From Bryobacterales bacterium (GTDB lineage: Bacteria > Acidobacteriota > Terriglobia > Bryobacterales > UBA6623), in assembly GCA_028819215.1 (NCBI GenBank), contig JAPPMG010000022.1, positions 1 to 64,000 on the forward strand: 64,000 bases of DNA. Reading direction: 5' to 3'. The position numbers were made by a program, and so were the translations under genes. Under the pieces are notes generated by a model. The model made no database searches. It worked only from the letters and a program-made list of their open reading frames with translations, and had not been told where the DNA came from. Of the stretch, positions 20,616 to 29,044 are shown piece by piece (position 1 is the first letter of the stretch; each line of letters begins with the position of its first letter).

Positions 20616-20894
20616 ATGACCACAGTGCCGCTGTCGCAAGCCAAGACTCACCTCGCCAAGCTGTTAGCCGAGGTGGAGGAACTCGGCGAAGAGGTGGTCG
20701 TAACCCGATCCGGACGTCCAGTAGCAGTGCTGCTTTCCTTGACCGAATACGAAGGGCTGCTCGAAACGTTGGAGATCCTAAGCGACCGGGACTTCGCCAA
20801 GCAGATCGAACTTGGCTTGAAGGAGGCGACTTCGGGAGAGTTGCTGAGCCACGAGGAAGTGTGGGATGCCTTGGACCCTGGTCTACACCGCTAG
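20616..20894 (+). CDS. Type II antitoxin, Phd/YefM-like
   Basis: A 92-residue protein beginning MTTVPLSQAKTHLAKLL, the N-terminal Phd/YefM DNA-binding fold, with the conserved EEVVVTRSGRPVAVLLS strand-turn-strand segment (about 26-42). The C-terminal part (about 55-92) would be the disordered toxin-neutralising tail. The reading frame overlaps the toxin gene by 29 nt, a common arrangement that keeps antitoxin in excess. It is expected to repress its own promoter alone and with the toxin. Confidence 0.9.
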   Translation: MTTVPLSQAKTHLAKLLAEVEELGEEVVVTRSGRPVAVLLSLTEYEGLLETLEILSDRDFAKQIELGLKEATSGELLSHEEVWDALDPGLHR

Positions 20895-21138
20895 TGCTGC
20901 GCGGGAAATCAGGAAGATTGATCCGGCTGTTCGACGGCGTCTCGCTGCCGCTCTACAGAAGCTCTGCGAGGAGCCTGACCGTGGGAAGCGGCTGCAATTC
21001 TCGCTGCGAGGGCTGCGGAACTGGCGGACGGGAGACTATCGAATCGTGTATCGCGTGGTCGAAACCCGCATTGAAATACTCATAGTGGCTATTGGCCACA
21101 GGCGGGATGTCTACAGCAAGCTGCGCGCTGCGCTATAG
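20866..21138 (+). CDS. Type II toxin, RelE/ParE superfamily
   Basis: A 90-residue basic protein. The pattern of a helix rich in Arg/Lys, then FSLRGLRNWRTGDYRIVY (about 46-63) and a final IVAIGHRRDVY (about 75-85) is diagnostic for RelE-like toxins. The RxGDYRIVY core and the C-terminal GHRxxxY motif include the residues used by RelE for ribosome-dependent mRNA cleavage. ParE-like gyrase inhibition cannot be excluded from sequence. It overlaps its antitoxin and is oriented towards the TonB-receptor gene, whose terminator lies between. Confidence 0.9.
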   Translation: MPWTLVYTASAAREIRKIDPAVRRRLAAALQKLCEEPDRGKRLQFSLRGLRNWRTGDYRIVYRVVETRIEILIVAIGHRRDVYSKLRAAL

Positions 21139-21397: not shown

Positions 21398-24300
21398 CTA
21401 GAAGCCGTAGCGCAGGCCGAGCTGGAGGATGCGGCCCGAGGCTCCCGGTGTCAGACCGGTGATGTTGCCAAACGCGCGGTTCTGCACATTGCCGACTGGT
21501 TGGCCGAAGTTGGCCCGGTTCGGCAGGTTGATGACTTCGCCGCGGAACTGCAGGGTGTGGCCCTCCCACGGCATGCGGATGTCCTTGATGATCGAGAGGT
21601 CGGCGCGTAGCGCCCCGGGGGCGATGAACGCGTTCCGGCCAAGTTCGCCGAACGTAAAGCGTGCAGGGCGATGGAATACCGACGTGTTGAAGAACTTCTC
21701 GCCGCGGACGTTGTCGCGCCACGAGCCGTTGCGCTGGTAGTCTCCGCTCACGTCAGCGCGGACACGCGCTGCTGTCGGGTAGACCTGACTGGCGTTGCCC
21801 CAATACGCCGAGAACGGGGGGCCCGTGCGCGCTTCCACAATGGTCCCCAGCGACCAGCCGCCCAAGATCTGATTGAGCACGCCGCTACTGAAAGCCACCG
21901 CGCGCCCTTGGCCCAGCGGGAGTTCGTAGACCAAGCTGAAGACAGCGCGATGGGCGACGTGGCTGCCCCCCAGGGACCATGCGATCCGGCGGTTGTACTG
22001 GTCCGAGAACGGGACACGGCCGTCTTCGCCGCCTAACTCATTGCGGCCCTCGACATTGTCCATCGCCTTGGCCCAGGTGTAGTTGGTTTGGAACTGGATG
22101 CCGTTCGAGTAGCGCTTCTCGAGCTTGAAGTTCACGCCGTGGTATTCCGAATCGCCAAAGGTCGGCGAGATCATCACCACGTTCGAGAACTGCGGGAACG
22201 GGCGCAGCACCTGTGGAGCGATGCCTTCGCTGTCCACGAGGTGGATCTGCGACGGGTGGACCTGGTTCTGCGTCGCCGACCCGGGGATGGTCAGCTTCTT
22301 GCCGATAGTCGACAGGTAGCCGACCTCGAAGAGCATGTCGCCGGGCAGGCGGCGCTGGATGTTGAAGTTATACGTGAGCAGGTACGGATTCGGGCGTCTC
22401 TCGGGCTCGAAGAACTGCGGCGAAAACCTCGGGCGGTCGCCGATCGGGACTGCGCCGAAGCCCGGCACGAGGTCGGCCTCGGTCGGTTCGATGACAGGCG
22501 GCAGGCCGTCACGCAGCAGGAAGGCCGCATCGGTCGGGCGCAGCGTGCCAAACGTGCCCTGAATCGAGAAACCCGCGTTGGTGACGACCGGGGTCGCTTG
22601 GTCGTACTGCCCGATGTAGACGATCGATGCCCCGGCGCGGATCACCCAGTCGTCGGTGGCGCGATACGAGAAGCCCACGCGGGGGCCGATGTTGCCGTAG
22701 ACGAAGTTGTGGGCGTACCTGCTGCCATTGCGGGCATCGCGGCCGGACCACGTGATCACTCCCGGGCAATCGCAGACAGGGTTGTTGCCCGCCGCGTCGA
22801 ACGAATTCTGGCGGTTGTCGATCGCTTCCCACCGCGGCGTGTCGAAGTCCCAGCGCAGGCCCAGGTTCAATGACAGCTTGGGCGTTACCTTCCAGTCGTC
22901 CTGCACGTACAGGCCCATGGAGTTCGCCCGGCTGCGGATCAGGAACGTCTCCTGCCGGCTGCCGCCTGCCACCCATCCGTAAAGCAGGGCCGCGACCGAG
23001 TCGCCGGTGGCGTTCTGGTTGAAGTTCATCGAACCGCCGGCTTGGGACAGGAACACGTCGTCGTTGATCGACCAGCGGAACTCTCCGCCCCACTTCAGCG
23101 TGTGCTTGCCGCTCACGTAGGTCCAGTTGGAAACGATGTGGTTGTCGCGGATCGGGAACTGCCGGCGCTCCTGGCCGCCGCCGCGACCGATGCGCTGGAT
23201 TCCGCCGGCCAGGCCGAATCCGGGGAAGAATTCCGGGTTGTTACCGGTGAAACCGATCTGTTGGGATAGGCCGAGGCCCTTGGCGGCGATGGTGGGGTGC
23301 CATTTCCGCTTGTTCCACGTGAAGCGGTTCTCCGTGACCAACTTGTTCGTGAGATTCGAGATCTCCGTCACCGACCAGTTGAAGTAGTGGTACTTGTTGA
23401 TTCGCTGGGCGGTGTGGACCGGCTGAGGCCAGAAATCCTTGAAGTCCTCGCGGTTGCCGATGGTGTGAACGTATCGACCGTACAAGCGGTGCCGCTCGTT
23501 CAAGGTGTGGTCGACGCGGACTGACAGCGTGTTGTTGTCGTTCACGTTGCGGGCGTTGTTCTGGAAGTTCCGGCTCCGAGACGGCCGTCCCTCGACGTTA
23601 GGCGTCGGCCAGAACTTCGCGACGGCAGCCCCGACCGGATCCAAGTCGGCTGCGGGGATCATATTGTTCGGAACTGGTTCCATGGTCACCGGATTGCGGA
23701 TCGTCGTGCCCAAGCCGGAGAAGTCGCCGCGCGTTTCGGCCGGATCGGGGATGTTCTCGATCCGGGGAGCCGCCGTCCGAATGTTCGTGAATTCCTGGCT
23801 GGCGAAGAAGAAGCTCCTGTCCTTGGCGATCGGCCCGCCGAGGGCCCAGCCGTACTGGTTCCGGCGGAGGAGTTGCTTGTTCGAGCCTGAGAAGAAGTGT
23901 CGCGAGTCCATCGCGTCATTGCGAATGAACTCGTAGACCGCTCCGTGAAGGCTGTTGGTCCCAGACTTGGTCGTCATCTGGATGAAGCCGCCTCCCGAGC
24001 GCCCCATCTCGGCCTTGTAGTTCGAGACCTCGACGTTCATCTCTTCCAGAGCCTCAATCGGCGGGTCGTAGTTCAGCGAGGCGACGCCCAAGAGGATGTT
24101 CTGCGTCGAGCCGCCGTCCAAGGTCCACATGGCGTTGTTGCTTCGGCCACCGGCGATCTGGAACTGCGAGCCGTTGCCGCGTTGGACGACAAAGCCGCTG
24201 AGGCGGACTAGCTGGGCCGCTCGCCGCCCGAGCAACGGCATGTTCGCGATGGACCGGTTCTGGATCACTCCGCCAACCGAGGAATTCTCGGTCTTGAGCA

Positions 24301-24670
24301 ATGGCACATCGGCTTCCACCGTGACCGACTCCGTGACTTCGCCGAGCTCCATCACCGCGTCAGCCCTGGCCGACGAAGCGGTGTCCAGGCGGATACCCTC
24401 TCGCGTGTACTGCTTGAAGCCGGCCGTGGTGACGATCAGCTCAAACGTGCCGGGCTTGATGAACGGGATCGTGTAGCTGCCCGTCTCGTTCGTCGTTGTC
24501 GTGTATGACTCGCCGGTCTCCATGTTCATGATCACGATCTCGGCGCCGGGAATCACCGCGCCGGATCCGTCGCTGACGGTCCCAGTCAGCGTGGCGTTGG
24601 TCTGGGCCAGGCCGATAGCCGCGCCCATCAGGAGTAGCGCTCCTGCTAGGAGCCAGATGTTTCGATGCAT
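21398..24670 (-). CDS. TonB-dependent receptor with CnaB-like N-terminal domain (Oar-like)
   Basis: The ATG at 24670 starts a signal peptide (MHRNIWLLAGALLLMGAAIG) and has a GGGGGGAT ribosome-binding site about 6-13 nt upstream, so the longer in-frame start at 24748 is rejected. The mature 1090-residue protein has a carboxypeptidase-regulatory/CnaB-like domain (about 25-105, GTVSDGSGAVIPGAEI), a TonB plug (about 115-220, including TLDGGSTQN) and a long outer-membrane beta-barrel ending in an aromatic residue (LGLRYGF). This architecture is the Acidobacteriota Oar-like receptor group, used for uptake of large ligands such as oligosaccharides. The substrate cannot be deduced. A terminator follows at 21349-21377. 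Confidence 0.92.
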   Translation of the reverse strand: MHRNIWLLAGALLLMGAAIGLAQTNATLTGTVSDGSGAVIPGAEIVIMNMETGESYTTTTNETGSYTIPFIKPGTFELIVTTAGFKQYTREGIRLDTASSARADAVMELGEVTESVTVEADVPLLKTENSSVGGVIQNRSIANMPLLGRRAAQLVRLSGFVVQRGNGSQFQIAGGRSNNAMWTLDGGSTQNILLGVASLNYDPPIEALEEMNVEVSNYKAEMGRSGGGFIQMTTKSGTNSLHGAVYEFIRNDAMDSRHFFSGSNKQLLRRNQYGWALGGPIAKDRSFFFASQEFTNIRTAAPRIENIPDPAETRGDFSGLGTTIRNPVTMEPVPNNMIPAADLDPVGAAVAKFWPTPNVEGRPSRSRNFQNNARNVNDNNTLSVRVDHTLNERHRLYGRYVHTIGNREDFKDFWPQPVHTAQRINKYHYFNWSVTEISNLTNKLVTENRFTWNKRKWHPTIAAKGLGLSQQIGFTGNNPEFFPGFGLAGGIQRIGRGGGQERRQFPIRDNHIVSNWTYVSGKHTLKWGGEFRWSINDDVFLSQAGGSMNFNQNATGDSVAALLYGWVAGGSRQETFLIRSRANSMGLYVQDDWKVTPKLSLNLGLRWDFDTPRWEAIDNRQNSFDAAGNNPVCDCPGVITWSGRDARNGSRYAHNFVYGNIGPRVGFSYRATDDWVIRAGASIVYIGQYDQATPVVTNAGFSIQGTFGTLRPTDAAFLLRDGLPPVIEPTEADLVPGFGAVPIGDRPRFSPQFFEPERRPNPYLLTYNFNIQRRLPGDMLFEVGYLSTIGKKLTIPGSATQNQVHPSQIHLVDSEGIAPQVLRPFPQFSNVVMISPTFGDSEYHGVNFKLEKRYSNGIQFQTNYTWAKAMDNVEGRNELGGEDGRVPFSDQYNRRIAWSLGGSHVAHRAVFSLVYELPLGQGRAVAFSSGVLNQILGGWSLGTIVEARTGPPFSAYWGNASQVYPTAARVRADVSGDYQRNGSWRDNVRGEKFFNTSVFHRPARFTFGELGRNAFIAPGALRADLSIIKDIRMPWEGHTLQFRGEVINLPNRANFGQPVGNVQNRAFGNITGLTPGASGRILQLGLRYGF

Positions 24671-24824
24671 GCTAAATCCCCCCAAATCGCAACTCTCGCA
24701 GTTGAGCGGGCGCCCAAAGCTGCGCCGCCCGCCCGAACTGCCCGCCAATACAGTACCACTGTTTGCGGTCCCAAATGTGAATCACAAGGTCCGCTGCACT
24801 GTAATGCGTCGCGCTCAAGCCCTC

Positions 24825-26222
24825 TTAGCGGCTCCAAACGCCATGCCAAGTGGCGAATTCTGAGGGCGTGACGCGGTAGCGGGCGAAGTTGCCTTCGTGC
24901 AGGCTTAGCAATTCGCGCTCGGTGATGGACCGAAAGCGTTCGCAGTCAGGTTCTGCGATGTGCTCGCCCGCCCATGACGCGATATGGGCGGCAGCCTGCT
25001 GCTTGTCCATGGCTGCGCGCACTACGGCGGCTACAACCTCCCGCAACGCGTTGCGGTATCGCATCCGGAGCGCGTCGGGCTCGCCGATTGACTGTCGCAC
25101 AGCCGCATAGCGGGCGGCAGACTGCCTGTAAGCCCGCACGAACAGATCGCGCAGCAGTTCAGTGCGTCGGAGTTCGTACACGCCGAGCAGCGCTTTGGAA
25201 TAGAGGTCGCGCGGCACCTCTTCAAACGACAGGGGCGACAGATTCGCTCTGATGAACGGAATATTCGCGGCGAGCCGGGAGACGCGCTTGTTGACGTCGT
25301 CGAAAGGCTGAAGATAGGGGAACTGCACCATCGTGAAAAAGGCCTGCTCAAACGGGTCTGCTATCGCCGAGGCCTTCGCGAGAGCTAGGTCGAAGCACTC
25401 CTCGATCAATTGCGGCACCTCGAGCGGGCGGAAGACCGAGCCTCCTATGCCTACGCCTCGGAAGCGGAGCCGGCCCGGCGCTGCCGGATCCGGCAGCAAG
25501 TTATCCGCCAGCAAGGCGTGAAGGCTGAGGATGCTGTGGCGATTGAACCCGATCTCCTCCGCCCCGTCGACGAGAAAAGCGATGGCATCCTTGTGATTCA
25601 GAATCATCTGGGTTTCGCGTGTATCCTTGCCCTCCGCCTCCTCCCCTGCTTCGATTAGGCGCTCCGTATCGAGCAGAGAATAGGTGTTGCCTTCCAGACG
25701 GCTGGAGTTCCATGAGAGGTCGATCAGCAGCCGGTTCAAGATCTGCTTGGCAAACGTGCCGGCCGGTTGTTCAGCAGGCGCGGCCGAGCCAATTTTCCGG
25801 AGCTCAGTTCGCTCCACTTCCGAAAGATAGAAGGTCCGGTTGGGCAGATATGAGTCGAGGAAATCGCGATCATAGCCAACTGGTTCGCGCTCTTCGAGAG
25901 GTAGCTCGATCTGTTCTCGAACTGCGGCACCAGCCCCGGAGAGAGGTTCCGTTACGAAGAGGCGGCCACTCACTGTCGCTCCCCCGGTACGGAGCTCGGC
26001 CGACAACTGGACAGCCGTCGGCATTCGATATCGTGTCCAGCGCCCCGAACCCTGCACAGCCAACCGCTGGCTGTCGACTAGCGACTTGAGACGATACTGC
26101 AGCGTCCGGCGCGGCGGCAGGGGATCGAGCCCTGCCGAGATCTCCTTCGCAGTCGAGCCGTCCGGCCGTGCTCGTACAAGCTCTTCGATTGCCTGTAGAT
26201 CCGCCTCGGCAATGCGCTTCAT
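24825..26222 (-). CDS. Fic-fold protein with degenerate active-site motif and N-terminal winged helix
   Basis: A 465-residue protein. Residues about 1-70 look like a winged-helix DNA-binding domain (STAKEISAGL and PRRTLQYRLKSLVD). The inhibitory-helix motif SSRLEG (173-178) sits ahead of the Fic core, as in class II Fic proteins. The active-site loop, canonically HxFxxGN(G/K)R, reads QPFDDVNKR at 305-313: the catalytic His is Gln305 and the glycine is Val310, while Phe307, Asn311, Lys312 and Arg313 are kept. Active Fic enzymes transfer AMP from ATP to hydroxyl side chains; loss of the histidine argues against this. The upstream region holds a long inverted repeat and TTGCGC half-sites, which suggests autoregulation through the winged helix. 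I recall a group of Fic proteins with this Q-P-F-x-D-V-N-K-R variant. Confidence 0.88.
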   Translation of the reverse strand: MKRIAEADLQAIEELVRARPDGSTAKEISAGLDPLPPRRTLQYRLKSLVDSQRLAVQGSGRWTRYRMPTAVQLSAELRTGGATVSGRLFVTEPLSGAGAAVREQIELPLEEREPVGYDRDFLDSYLPNRTFYLSEVERTELRKIGSAAPAEQPAGTFAKQILNRLLIDLSWNSSRLEGNTYSLLDTERLIEAGEEAEGKDTRETQMILNHKDAIAFLVDGAEEIGFNRHSILSLHALLADNLLPDPAAPGRLRFRGVGIGGSVFRPLEVPQLIEECFDLALAKASAIADPFEQAFFTMVQFPYLQPFDDVNKRVSRLAANIPFIRANLSPLSFEEVPRDLYSKALLGVYELRRTELLRDLFVRAYRQSAARYAAVRQSIGEPDALRMRYRNALREVVAAVVRAAMDKQQAAAHIASWAGEHIAEPDCERFRSITERELLSLHEGNFARYRVTPSEFATWHGVWSR

Positions 26223-26239
26223 GATCGCACCTCCCTCAG

Positions 26240-26338
26240 TTGCGCCTATAGCTCACTCTACACCGTCTATGCGCAACTCTCAATGCAATAATTGACTAAA
26301 ATTGCGCGAATAGCGCGAAACTTGCGCATAGACGGTGT
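26240..26338. promoter_or_regulatory. Operator-like inverted repeat upstream of the Fic gene
   Basis: A perfect 17-bp inverted repeat, ACACCGTCTATGCGCAA at 26260-26276 and its complement at 26322-26338, is separated by 45 nt. The sequence TTGCGC recurs at 26240, 26302 and 26322 on the plus strand and as GCGCAA at 26271-26276, giving four half-sites in 99 bp. The block covers the region 18-116 nt upstream of the Fic start, where a promoter and a dimeric regulator would be expected. The regulator is unknown; the winged helix of the Fic protein itself is the natural candidate. Confidence 0.6.
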
Positions 26339-26641: not shown

Positions 26642-29044
26642 ATGACAGTGATCCAAATCTTGCTGACACTAATTCTTTTTTCGGTGTCCTCGGCGAGCGC
26701 CAATCTGGCCGCGGCGACGCTGAACGGAACGGTGGTCGATCCATCCGGTGCCGCAGTGGCCGGAGCCACCGTCTCGCTGAGCCACCCTGTGTCCGGATTC
26801 GAACGCGAAGTCAGGGCCGACGACGGTGGCGGGTTTCGCTTCACCAATCTCCCCTTCCAGGCCTACGAGCTACGGGCGATGCAGCTTGGATTCCGGCCCT
26901 CAAGCCGTCGGGTGGAACTCCGCTCGAATTTACCTATGAGCATTGATCTCCAGTTGGAGTTGTTGACCCAATTGGAATCGGTGTCCGTCGGTGCCAACGC
27001 GAGTATCGCTCTGCTGGATCCGGAGGCCAGCGGGACGCAGACCCGACTCAGCCGGCTGATCATCGAGAAACTGCCGGTCAGCAGCGCCACTAGGGGCTTG
27101 GAGTCGGTGCTGCTCGGGTTCCCGGGTTTCGCCGCCAACGCTAACGGCTCGATCCATCCGCGCGGCGCCCACAACCAGATGACCTACGTGATCGACGGAA
27201 TGCCCATCAGCGACCAGTTCTCCGGACAGTTTGCGACCTCGATTGATCCCAACTTGGTAGAGACTCTGGAACTGTTCACGGGCAATATCCCGCCCGAGTA
27301 CGGCGCGAAGGTCTCCGGCGTTGCGCGGGTGACGACGCGATCCGGTTTTGACCGCGGCGGCCGCACTTTCGGACAGCTTGACTTGGGGGGCGGGGGATTC
27401 GACACATTGTCGCAGGCGGCACAGGTCGGCGGGACAGTCGGGACGCTGGGCTGGTTTGGCTCGATTTCCAGCGTCAAGACCAATCGCTTTCTCGACTCGC
27501 CGTCGCTTGACAACCTCCACAACGGCGGCAACGCCCAGCGCGGATCGCTACGTCTGGACTGGCACCGCCCGAGAGGGGATCTGTTCCGCATCACGGCCAT
27601 GGGCGGGCGGTCTTCGTTCCAGCTTGCCAACCTGCGCAGCCAGCACGCGAACGGCCAGCAACAGAGGCGGCTGCTGGATGATCAGGCCGTCTCGCTCGGC
27701 TACGTGCGGATCCTGGCGCCGATGGCCACGTTCGACTCCACCACGTCGTTTCGCACCACAGCGGGCAGCCTGACGCCAAGTCCGGGTGACACCCCTGTCA
27801 CGGCGGAGCTGGCCCGTTCGCTTTCGACGCTGGCCAGCTTTAATCGCTTCAGCTGGCACGGTGGCTCGCACCAGTTCACGTTGGGCCTTGACGGTCAGTA
27901 CTTCCCGGTGTCGGAGAGTTTCGTCTTCGGCCTGACCGATGCGCTCGTGAACGTTCCCCGGTCTGATGAGTTCAACCCGAACTTGCTGCCATTCGACCTG
28001 ACTCGCGGAGGGGCGCGCTTCCGCTTCCGGCAGAGCGCCTCGGGCCAGCTGCTGACCGCCTTCGTGCGCGACCGCGTGCGCTGGCGCAACCTAGTGCTCG
28101 ACCTCGGCCTGAGGCTGGATCGCTATTCCATGCTGGTGGTCGACAGCGAGCTCCAGCCGCGGGTCGGCCTGGCTTACCACATCGAGTCCACGGGCACAGT
28201 GCTGCGAGCTTCTTACAACCGCAACTTCCAGACGCCGCCCAATGAGAACCTGCTCTTGGCGAACTCCCAGCAAGCCGCCCTGCTCGCGCCCCCGGCTGTG
28301 CGTAGGTCCCTCAACGGCGGATCGATTCCGATCCAGCCGCAGTACCAGAACGTCTACGAGACAGGGCTGCAGCAAAGCATCGGCGGCATCGTCTCCGTAG
28401 ACGCCGCCTTCTATCACAAGGATTCGACAAACCCGCAGGACAACGACAACTTCCTCGACACAGGGATCATTTTCCCCACCTCGCTGGCATTCTCGCGAGT
28501 GAATGGTGTCGACGCACGCATAGTCTTGCCCGAGAGGCGCGGCGTTTCGGGGTCTCTGAGCCTGACGCACTTCCGAGCGATCGTGACTCCGCCGTTCACC
28601 GGAGGGCTGTTCTTGGCCAGATCAAGCCTAGACGCGCTGTCCGAGGGCCCCTTCGTGATCGACCACGACCAAGCCTTGGGCATGAGCGGGAATGTGATCT
28701 ACCGCCCGGCGAAGCACTGGTGGACGAGCTGGCAGTTGCGCTATGACAGCGGCTTGGTGGCCAACCCTTCCGATCCCGCCCAGGTCGCGGTCGATCCCGA
28801 CTATTTCGACCTGCTGCCGCATGTCGACTTGGCGGGCGATCCGCCGCGGATCCGGCCGCGCACGATCATCGACGCTTCGCTCGGCTACGAGCATTATCGC
28901 GGCGACCGGCGCGTCTGGGAAGTTGCGTTCCACGTGTCGAACCTGACGAATCGAGAGGCTCTGTACAGCTTCCAGTCTGTGTTCGTCGGCACCCGCGTGC
29001 TCCAGCCGTTCACGGCTAGCGTGCGGCTACGCCTGTTCTGGTGA
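26642..29044 (+). CDS. TonB-dependent receptor with carboxypeptidase-regulatory-like domain, probably metal-regulated
   Basis: An 800-residue outer-membrane receptor, shorter than the 1090-residue paralogue upstream. A signal peptide (about 1-20) precedes a CnaB/carboxypeptidase-regulatory-like domain (GTVVDPSGAAVAGATV, about 28-105). A plug domain follows (about 115-235) with the typical MTYVIDGMPISDQF segment and IPPEYGAKVSG, then a barrel ending RLRLFW. Its promoter overlaps a DtxR/MntR-like box, which suggests uptake of an iron or manganese complex, such as a siderophore, under metal limitation. No periplasmic binding protein or ABC transporter is adjacent. The Shine-Dalgarno is weak. Confidence 0.9.
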   Translation: MTVIQILLTLILFSVSSASANLAAATLNGTVVDPSGAAVAGATVSLSHPVSGFEREVRADDGGGFRFTNLPFQAYELRAMQLGFRPSSRRVELRSNLPMSIDLQLELLTQLESVSVGANASIALLDPEASGTQTRLSRLIIEKLPVSSATRGLESVLLGFPGFAANANGSIHPRGAHNQMTYVIDGMPISDQFSGQFATSIDPNLVETLELFTGNIPPEYGAKVSGVARVTTRSGFDRGGRTFGQLDLGGGGFDTLSQAAQVGGTVGTLGWFGSISSVKTNRFLDSPSLDNLHNGGNAQRGSLRLDWHRPRGDLFRITAMGGRSSFQLANLRSQHANGQQQRRLLDDQAVSLGYVRILAPMATFDSTTSFRTTAGSLTPSPGDTPVTAELARSLSTLASFNRFSWHGGSHQFTLGLDGQYFPVSESFVFGLTDALVNVPRSDEFNPNLLPFDLTRGGARFRFRQSASGQLLTAFVRDRVRWRNLVLDLGLRLDRYSMLVVDSELQPRVGLAYHIESTGTVLRASYNRNFQTPPNENLLLANSQQAALLAPPAVRRSLNGGSIPIQPQYQNVYETGLQQSIGGIVSVDAAFYHKDSTNPQDNDNFLDTGIIFPTSLAFSRVNGVDARIVLPERRGVSGSLSLTHFRAIVTPPFTGGLFLARSSLDALSEGPFVIDHDQALGMSGNVIYRPAKHWWTSWQLRYDSGLVANPSDPAQVAVDPDYFDLLPHVDLAGDPPRIRPRTIIDASLGYEHYRGDRRVWEVAFHVSNLTNREALYSFQSVFVGTRVLQPFTASVRLRLFW

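Follow-up and report, generated by a model that had tools for sequence, protein, structure and literature searches.

The TTGCGC array in front of fic is very probably an autorepression operator that is bound cooperatively by the Fic protein itself. The observations behind this reading are the conservation of the sites, their spacing, their overlap with the predicted promoter, their almost complete confinement to fic in the genomes searched and the covariation between a residue of the protein and a base of the site. The fic gene, an open reading frame of 465 codons, occupies 24825..26222 on the minus strand of the window (the whole stretch of 64,000 nucleotides analysed), with its start codon at 26222-26220; the repeat region thus lies just before the Fic start, where the initial annotation had placed it.

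That annotation described a 17-bp perfect inverted repeat with a 45-nt spacer, accompanied by additional TTGCGC half-sites, and on both points it was exact. Sequence comparison shows that the left arm (ACACCGTCTATGCGCAA, 26260..26276, no strand assigned) and the right arm (TTGCGCATAGACGGTGT, 26322..26338, likewise) pair exactly along their full 17 bp across a gap of 45 nt, and that extension inward gives 22 nt at 91% pairing; the longest perfect inverted repeat found in 60 dinucleotide shuffles of the 420-bp intergenic region was only 11 bp. Two extra TTGCGC cores, at 26240 and 26302 on the plus strand, flank the arms, bringing the number of TTGCGC/GCGCAA cores before fic to 4 in 160 nt, compared with 0.28 expected (0 of 2000 shuffles reached 4). 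The inverted-repeat element is present in a single copy in its own 5.86-Mb genome. The two closest orthologues, L034 (93% identical) and L035 (86%), keep the site cores, but the outer bases of the arms are imperfectly paired. As the cores are kept and the perfect arms lost, the palindrome is best described as two opposed sites with partly fortuitous outer pairing, and what is conserved and functional is not the 17-bp palindrome but an 11-bp site, TTGCGCATAGA, of which there are four copies.

The four operator sites are arranged around a promoter predicted, here as in the orthologues, from the sigma70-type consensus. Site 1 (TTGCGCATAGA, 26322..26332, plus strand, gene position -100, matrix score 17.7) forms the inner part of the right arm, and is followed by site 2 (TTGCGCGAATA, 26302..26312, plus strand, gene position -80, score 15.0). 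Site 3 (TTGCGCATAGA, 26266..26276, minus strand, gene position -54, score 18.0) forms the inner left arm and falls in the spacer between the predicted -35 box (TTGAGA, 26278..26283, minus strand) and the predicted -10 box (TAGAGT, 26255..26260, minus strand, 17 bp from the -35). Site 4 (TTGCGCCTATA, 26240..26250, plus strand, gene position -18, score 15.1) lies between the promoter and a purine-rich stretch that includes GGAGGT and would bind the ribosome ahead of the fic start (26228..26236, minus strand). L034 and L035 preserve the site cores, site 4 among them, both promoter boxes and the ribosome-binding stretch: the TTGA of the -35 box and the GGAGGT are present in both, and the -10 box reads TAAAAT in L034 and TATAGT in L035.

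Conservation was followed further in 80 orthologous loci from several phyla (56-93% identity), obtained from a scan of genome contigs. Almost all of these loci have TTGCGC sites upstream of fic, with a mean of 3.96 cores per 160 nt, compared with 0.44 in shuffled sequence (maximum of 100 sets, 0.60) and with a core density of 0.17 in the remainder of the same loci. The initial annotation had proposed looking for the repeat before orthologous fic genes, and had named a lack of conservation there as refuting; the outcome clearly goes against refutation, as the TTGCGC sites are kept, although the 17-bp perfection is lost even in the closest two. A site weight matrix gave the consensus TTGCGCATAGA, with 1.4-1.9 bits in the core columns and about 0 in the outer flanks, and a mean of 4.8 sites per orthologue after removal of overlaps. 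Consecutive direct sites are spaced 19-21 bp apart in 129 of 148 cases, and the site proximal to the start codon is mostly reverse-facing, 9-18 nt from that codon. The period of two helical turns found in most orthologues fits the cooperative binding by a multimeric regulator that the initial annotation had envisaged. Its other suggestion, looping over the 45-nt spacer, gains no special support, because the spacer and the palindrome vary whereas the phased array and the promoter overlap persist.

The overlap with the promoter is equally general, as a site overlaps the best predicted promoter in 77 of the 80 orthologues. The consensus blocks, gcGcAa..aT..TTGCGCaTAgaCTTGATtaTTGCGC.TA and cTTGATaaTTGCGCaTA.AtgtG.tTTA.TTGCGCaTAgA, contain a promoter, TTGATA - 17 bp - TTTAAT, interwoven with the sites. 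Relative to the start of the -35 box, forward sites occur at -12 (34 cases), +7 (40 cases) and +27/28 (49 cases). Site 3 of the present locus takes the +7 position that is shared with 40 of the 80 orthologues; the +28 and -12 sites frequent in other orthologues are missing from its array.

Genome-wide scans, which used patterns rather than the matrix, place the array almost exclusively at fic. The direct-pair pattern was matched at fic in 13 of 20 host genomes and at five other places, all of them single pairs, and the reversed control pattern gave 3 matches in the same 20 genomes; in the source genome the divergent pair was found only at fic. On inspection, the five non-fic pairs showed no arrays, with the exception of a two-site case in L141. 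The non-fic pairs look like chance occurrences, and a large regulon is rejected. In L141, two TTGCGC sites lie 21 bp apart at 1500-1540, a few tens of bases before the ATG of another gene; that genome also carries the fic array, and the two-site case may mark a second target. A small regulon beyond fic is conceivable, with the L141 case as its candidate. The source genome also encodes a second fic homologue (L030, C62:63961-65316), which is 59% identical, has the helix RTLQF and carries TTGCGC sites of its own upstream; cross-regulation between L030 and the copy at 24825..26222 is consequently possible.

The Fic protein consists of an N-terminal winged helix-turn-helix (HTH, residues 1-66), a disordered linker (70-89) and a class-II Fic domain. 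In the AF2 model (pLDDT 87.6), helices at 6-17, 25-31 and 38-50 with strands at 55-57 and 64-66 build the winged helix, and Pfam detects the HTH_20 family in 14 of 56 homologues. Profile and fold agree on the Fic/Fido assignment: Pfam PF02661 (Fic) is matched at 36.7 bits (cut-off 24, E 8e-9), and a PDB search returned human FICD (Z 25.1) and other class-II Fic proteins as the best fold matches. The Fic part also matches the Fic entry 7xux (Z 20.6), which we take to be CccR from the title, date and length of the entry. Sofic and PDC-S04 defence models (PADLOC) gave weak matches, with E values of 3e-10 and 3e-15, to the Fic domain part only. Membership of class II is indicated by the inhibitory motif SSRLEGN at 173-179, which fits the (S/T)xxxE(G/N) pattern of an N-terminal inhibitory helix and in which Glu177 is invariant in the alignments. 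The catalytic motif, QPFDDVNKRVSR, departs from the HPFx[D/E]GN[G/K]R with His of catalytic Fic AMPylases: Gln305 stands in the catalytic His position, aligned with the His of FICD and of its C. elegans homologue. Of 155 homologues, 154 have Gln here; the one that does not is L029, and its reading frame is split across two matches. Nevertheless, the inhibitory motif with Glu177 is strongly conserved together with Asn311, Lys312, Arg313 and Arg316, which argues that the pocket is under selection and not decaying.

The link between this protein and the array comes from the recognition helix (residues 38-50 of the AF2 model), whose start, RRTLQYRLK (residues 38-46), is encoded at 26085..26111 on the minus strand. 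The equivalent of Tyr43, which lies within this helix, covaries with base 2 of the operator. Tyr, His or Phe at residue 43 accompanies T at base 2 in 80 of 81 homologues and Arg accompanies G in 50 of 53; the single homologue with Asp has C. The mutual information of residue 43 and base 2 is 0.96 bits, the top value of 21 residue-base pairs, with the second at 0.36. Because relatedness inflates such raw counts, a tree provides the fair measure. On a tree built from the columns after residue 90, and thus without the helix, the residue changed between Arg and non-Arg five times; over random pairings, the base follows the residue in 4.5 of the five independent pairs on average and never does the opposite. 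That the figure is 4.5 rather than 5 is an effect of L011, whose base was misread by the automated caller and is TGGCGC by eye (the caller misreads some GCGC-palindromic or non-CG cores, and those were read by eye). A sign test on the five switches gives p 0.0625, the lowest value attainable with five. Twelve later homologues outside the code set (L202-L213) all have Arg43, with TGGC or TGTC arrays wherever the upstream region is readable; they agree with the rule and bring no further switch. Three extra loci (L214-L216) had no usable helix or start. The initial annotation had implied the Fic protein as the binder by proposing a footprint with it, and the covariation implicates Fic's own winged helix.

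A second, weaker rule is suggested by the same alignments, in which base 5 is G in 120 of 125 cases with Gln at residue 42, and C in 7 of 8 with Arg. Loci L060, L061 and L049 have TLRY in place of TLQY and carry TTGTTCGATT-like repeats (TTATTCGATT in L049) every 20 bp; residue 42 may thus read bases 4-5. In L209-L213, RR at residues 42-43 (RSVRR, RTVRR, RTLRR) pairs with TGGCCGTAT or TGGCCAGAA arrays. The distant acidobacterial relatives L016-L018, L021-L022, L024-L028 and L031 have helices such as KAIRR and a different site, mostly TGTCC and in some cases TGTCG or TGTCA: the array is retained and its sequence altered.

In the mechanism that we propose, the N-terminal winged helix of Fic would read the 11-bp sites, which lie upstream of, within and just downstream of the sigma70-type promoter, mostly about two helical turns apart. 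Several Fic molecules would bind together cooperatively and block RNA polymerase, keeping fic expression low, and a drop in the Fic level, or a signal sensed by the Fic domain, would release the repression. From the observations above we infer the binding itself, its cooperativity, repression over activation and any signal, with repression proposed because the sites sit on the promoter. As fic is a lone gene and its array has almost no other target, the output of the protein is suggested to be the Fic domain itself, held low by feedback.

The main competitor to self-repression is an activating or bistable operator, at which Fic, once bound, would raise the activity of its own promoter or flip it between states. 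A multi-site cooperative array would suit a switch, and many orthologues have sites upstream of the -35 box at position -12, yet the commonest positions lie between the two promoter boxes and immediately beyond the -10 box, as is usual for repression, and the close analogue CccR is a self-repressor; we consider this alternative unlikely, though some of the sites may have an activating role. The operators of toxin-like genes are often bound by separate repressors, so the array might instead be read by another host-encoded regulator, with the HTH of Fic irrelevant to it. Such a regulator would not account for the residue of the Fic helix that tracks base 2 in 136 called homologues and through five independent switches. 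The array moreover travels with fic across phyla and plasmids, and no neighbouring gene is conserved within 3 kb of fic (the best gene cluster recurs in 4 other loci), making a separate reader quite improbable.

Explanations that do not invoke a DNA-binding protein fare worse. Perfect 17-bp arms around a 45-nt loop could fold, and fic is patchily distributed, as would suit a role as an RNA hairpin or terminator, or as one end of a small mobile element. However, transcription is predicted to start downstream of both arms, so that the mRNA would not contain the hairpin; it is also the sites, and not the palindrome, that are conserved. The RNA or terminator variant is rejected on its sole Rfam match, which scores 23.4, far under the gathering score of 90, and the mobile-element variant on the single copy of the element, leaving the structural reading very improbable. 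Least credible of all is the view that the repeats arose by chance in a spacer of high GC content. Short words rich in GCGC are frequent in GC-rich genomes, but neither the core count nor the arm length was approached in the shuffles, and the sites are conserved in 80 orthologues.

The distribution of fic is patchy, with homologues in 21 of 396 genomes of the source phylum, 9 of 385 of the class of L066, 39 of 369 of the class of L101 and 4 of 240 of the phylum of L100. In several records the homologue is plasmid-borne and neighbours genes for integrase or transfer, and the gene is probably mobile. A phage origin is rejected, as phage records gave only a partial match of 31%; 11 viral contigs carry fic homologues. 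A FicTA or Phd-Doc toxin-antitoxin arrangement is likewise rejected, as there is no adjacent antitoxin and no neighbour conserved within the 3 kb. The window does contain an ordinary type II pair, in which a Phd/YefM antitoxin (PF02604) overlaps a ParE/RelE-type toxin (PF05016) at 20616-21138 on the plus strand, 3.7 kb past the 3' end of fic. The gene is flanked by two large outer-membrane TonB-type proteins (21398-24748, minus strand; 26642-29044, plus strand), both with carboxypeptidase regulatory-like domains.

The closest precedent is CccR of Yersinia pseudotuberculosis, a secreted Fic-HTH effector that represses its own gene through an inverted repeat near the -35/-10 region, as demonstrated by footprint, gel shift and lacZ assays (PMC9755527). 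As described there, CccR likewise combines a class-II Fic domain with an HTH and has repeats overlapping its own promoter (predicted in our case). It differs in having a C-terminal HTH, whereas that of the present protein is N-terminal in the model, in a catalytic His that is needed for toxicity and is replaced here by Gln, and in an operator that consists of a single pair of 10-bp repeats set 26 bp apart, in place of, usually, 4-6 sites at a phase of about 20 bp. CbFic2 of Coxiella burnetii and SO_4266 of Shewanella are further class-II proteins that join the Fic fold to a winged HTH, again C-terminal (PMC10628234, PMC9755527); CbFic2 is active in AMPylation and binds DNA, with high affinity for random sequences as reported there; the parts of these reports consulted define no operator. 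The Gln-for-His exchange is known in silico from clade D2 of the Doc subfamily, with the motif Qx[FY]x[DE][GV]NKR in usually single-domain proteins (PMC4454073). QPFDDVNKR fits this motif, and we set the protein alongside D2 by motif, not by tree; the consulted description of D2 gives no HTH, operator or function, unlike the HTH and array found here. Control of fic expression by fused HTH domains was put forward as a possibility in a survey of Fido proteins (PMC2686095), which in its relevant part gives no site or code; both are proposed here for one family. The literature searched contained no operator array or recognition code for N-terminal-HTH Gln-Fic proteins, and on the function of Gln-Fic proteins it yielded only the D2 description in the part of PMC4454073 consulted.

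An autoregulated Fic-HTH protein is thus of a known kind; what is unusual here is the phased operator array, the candidate recognition code and the His-less Fic domain. More tentatively, and with considerable doubt, the Gln-Fic proteins whose winged helix is N-terminal may form a widespread family of their own, each member a single gene that regulates itself. Their His-less pocket would then sense a nucleotide or another ligand and so control a cooperative array whose specificity follows the residue 43 code. Class-II proteins reportedly make up about 80% of Fic proteins, and the account consulted describes their functions and control as nearly uncharted (PMC9755527). A conserved operator, together with a specificity code that can be tested by single substitutions, provides a clean handle on them, and the role of Fic domains that keep a strictly conserved active site yet have no catalytic His becomes a question for a reporter assay.
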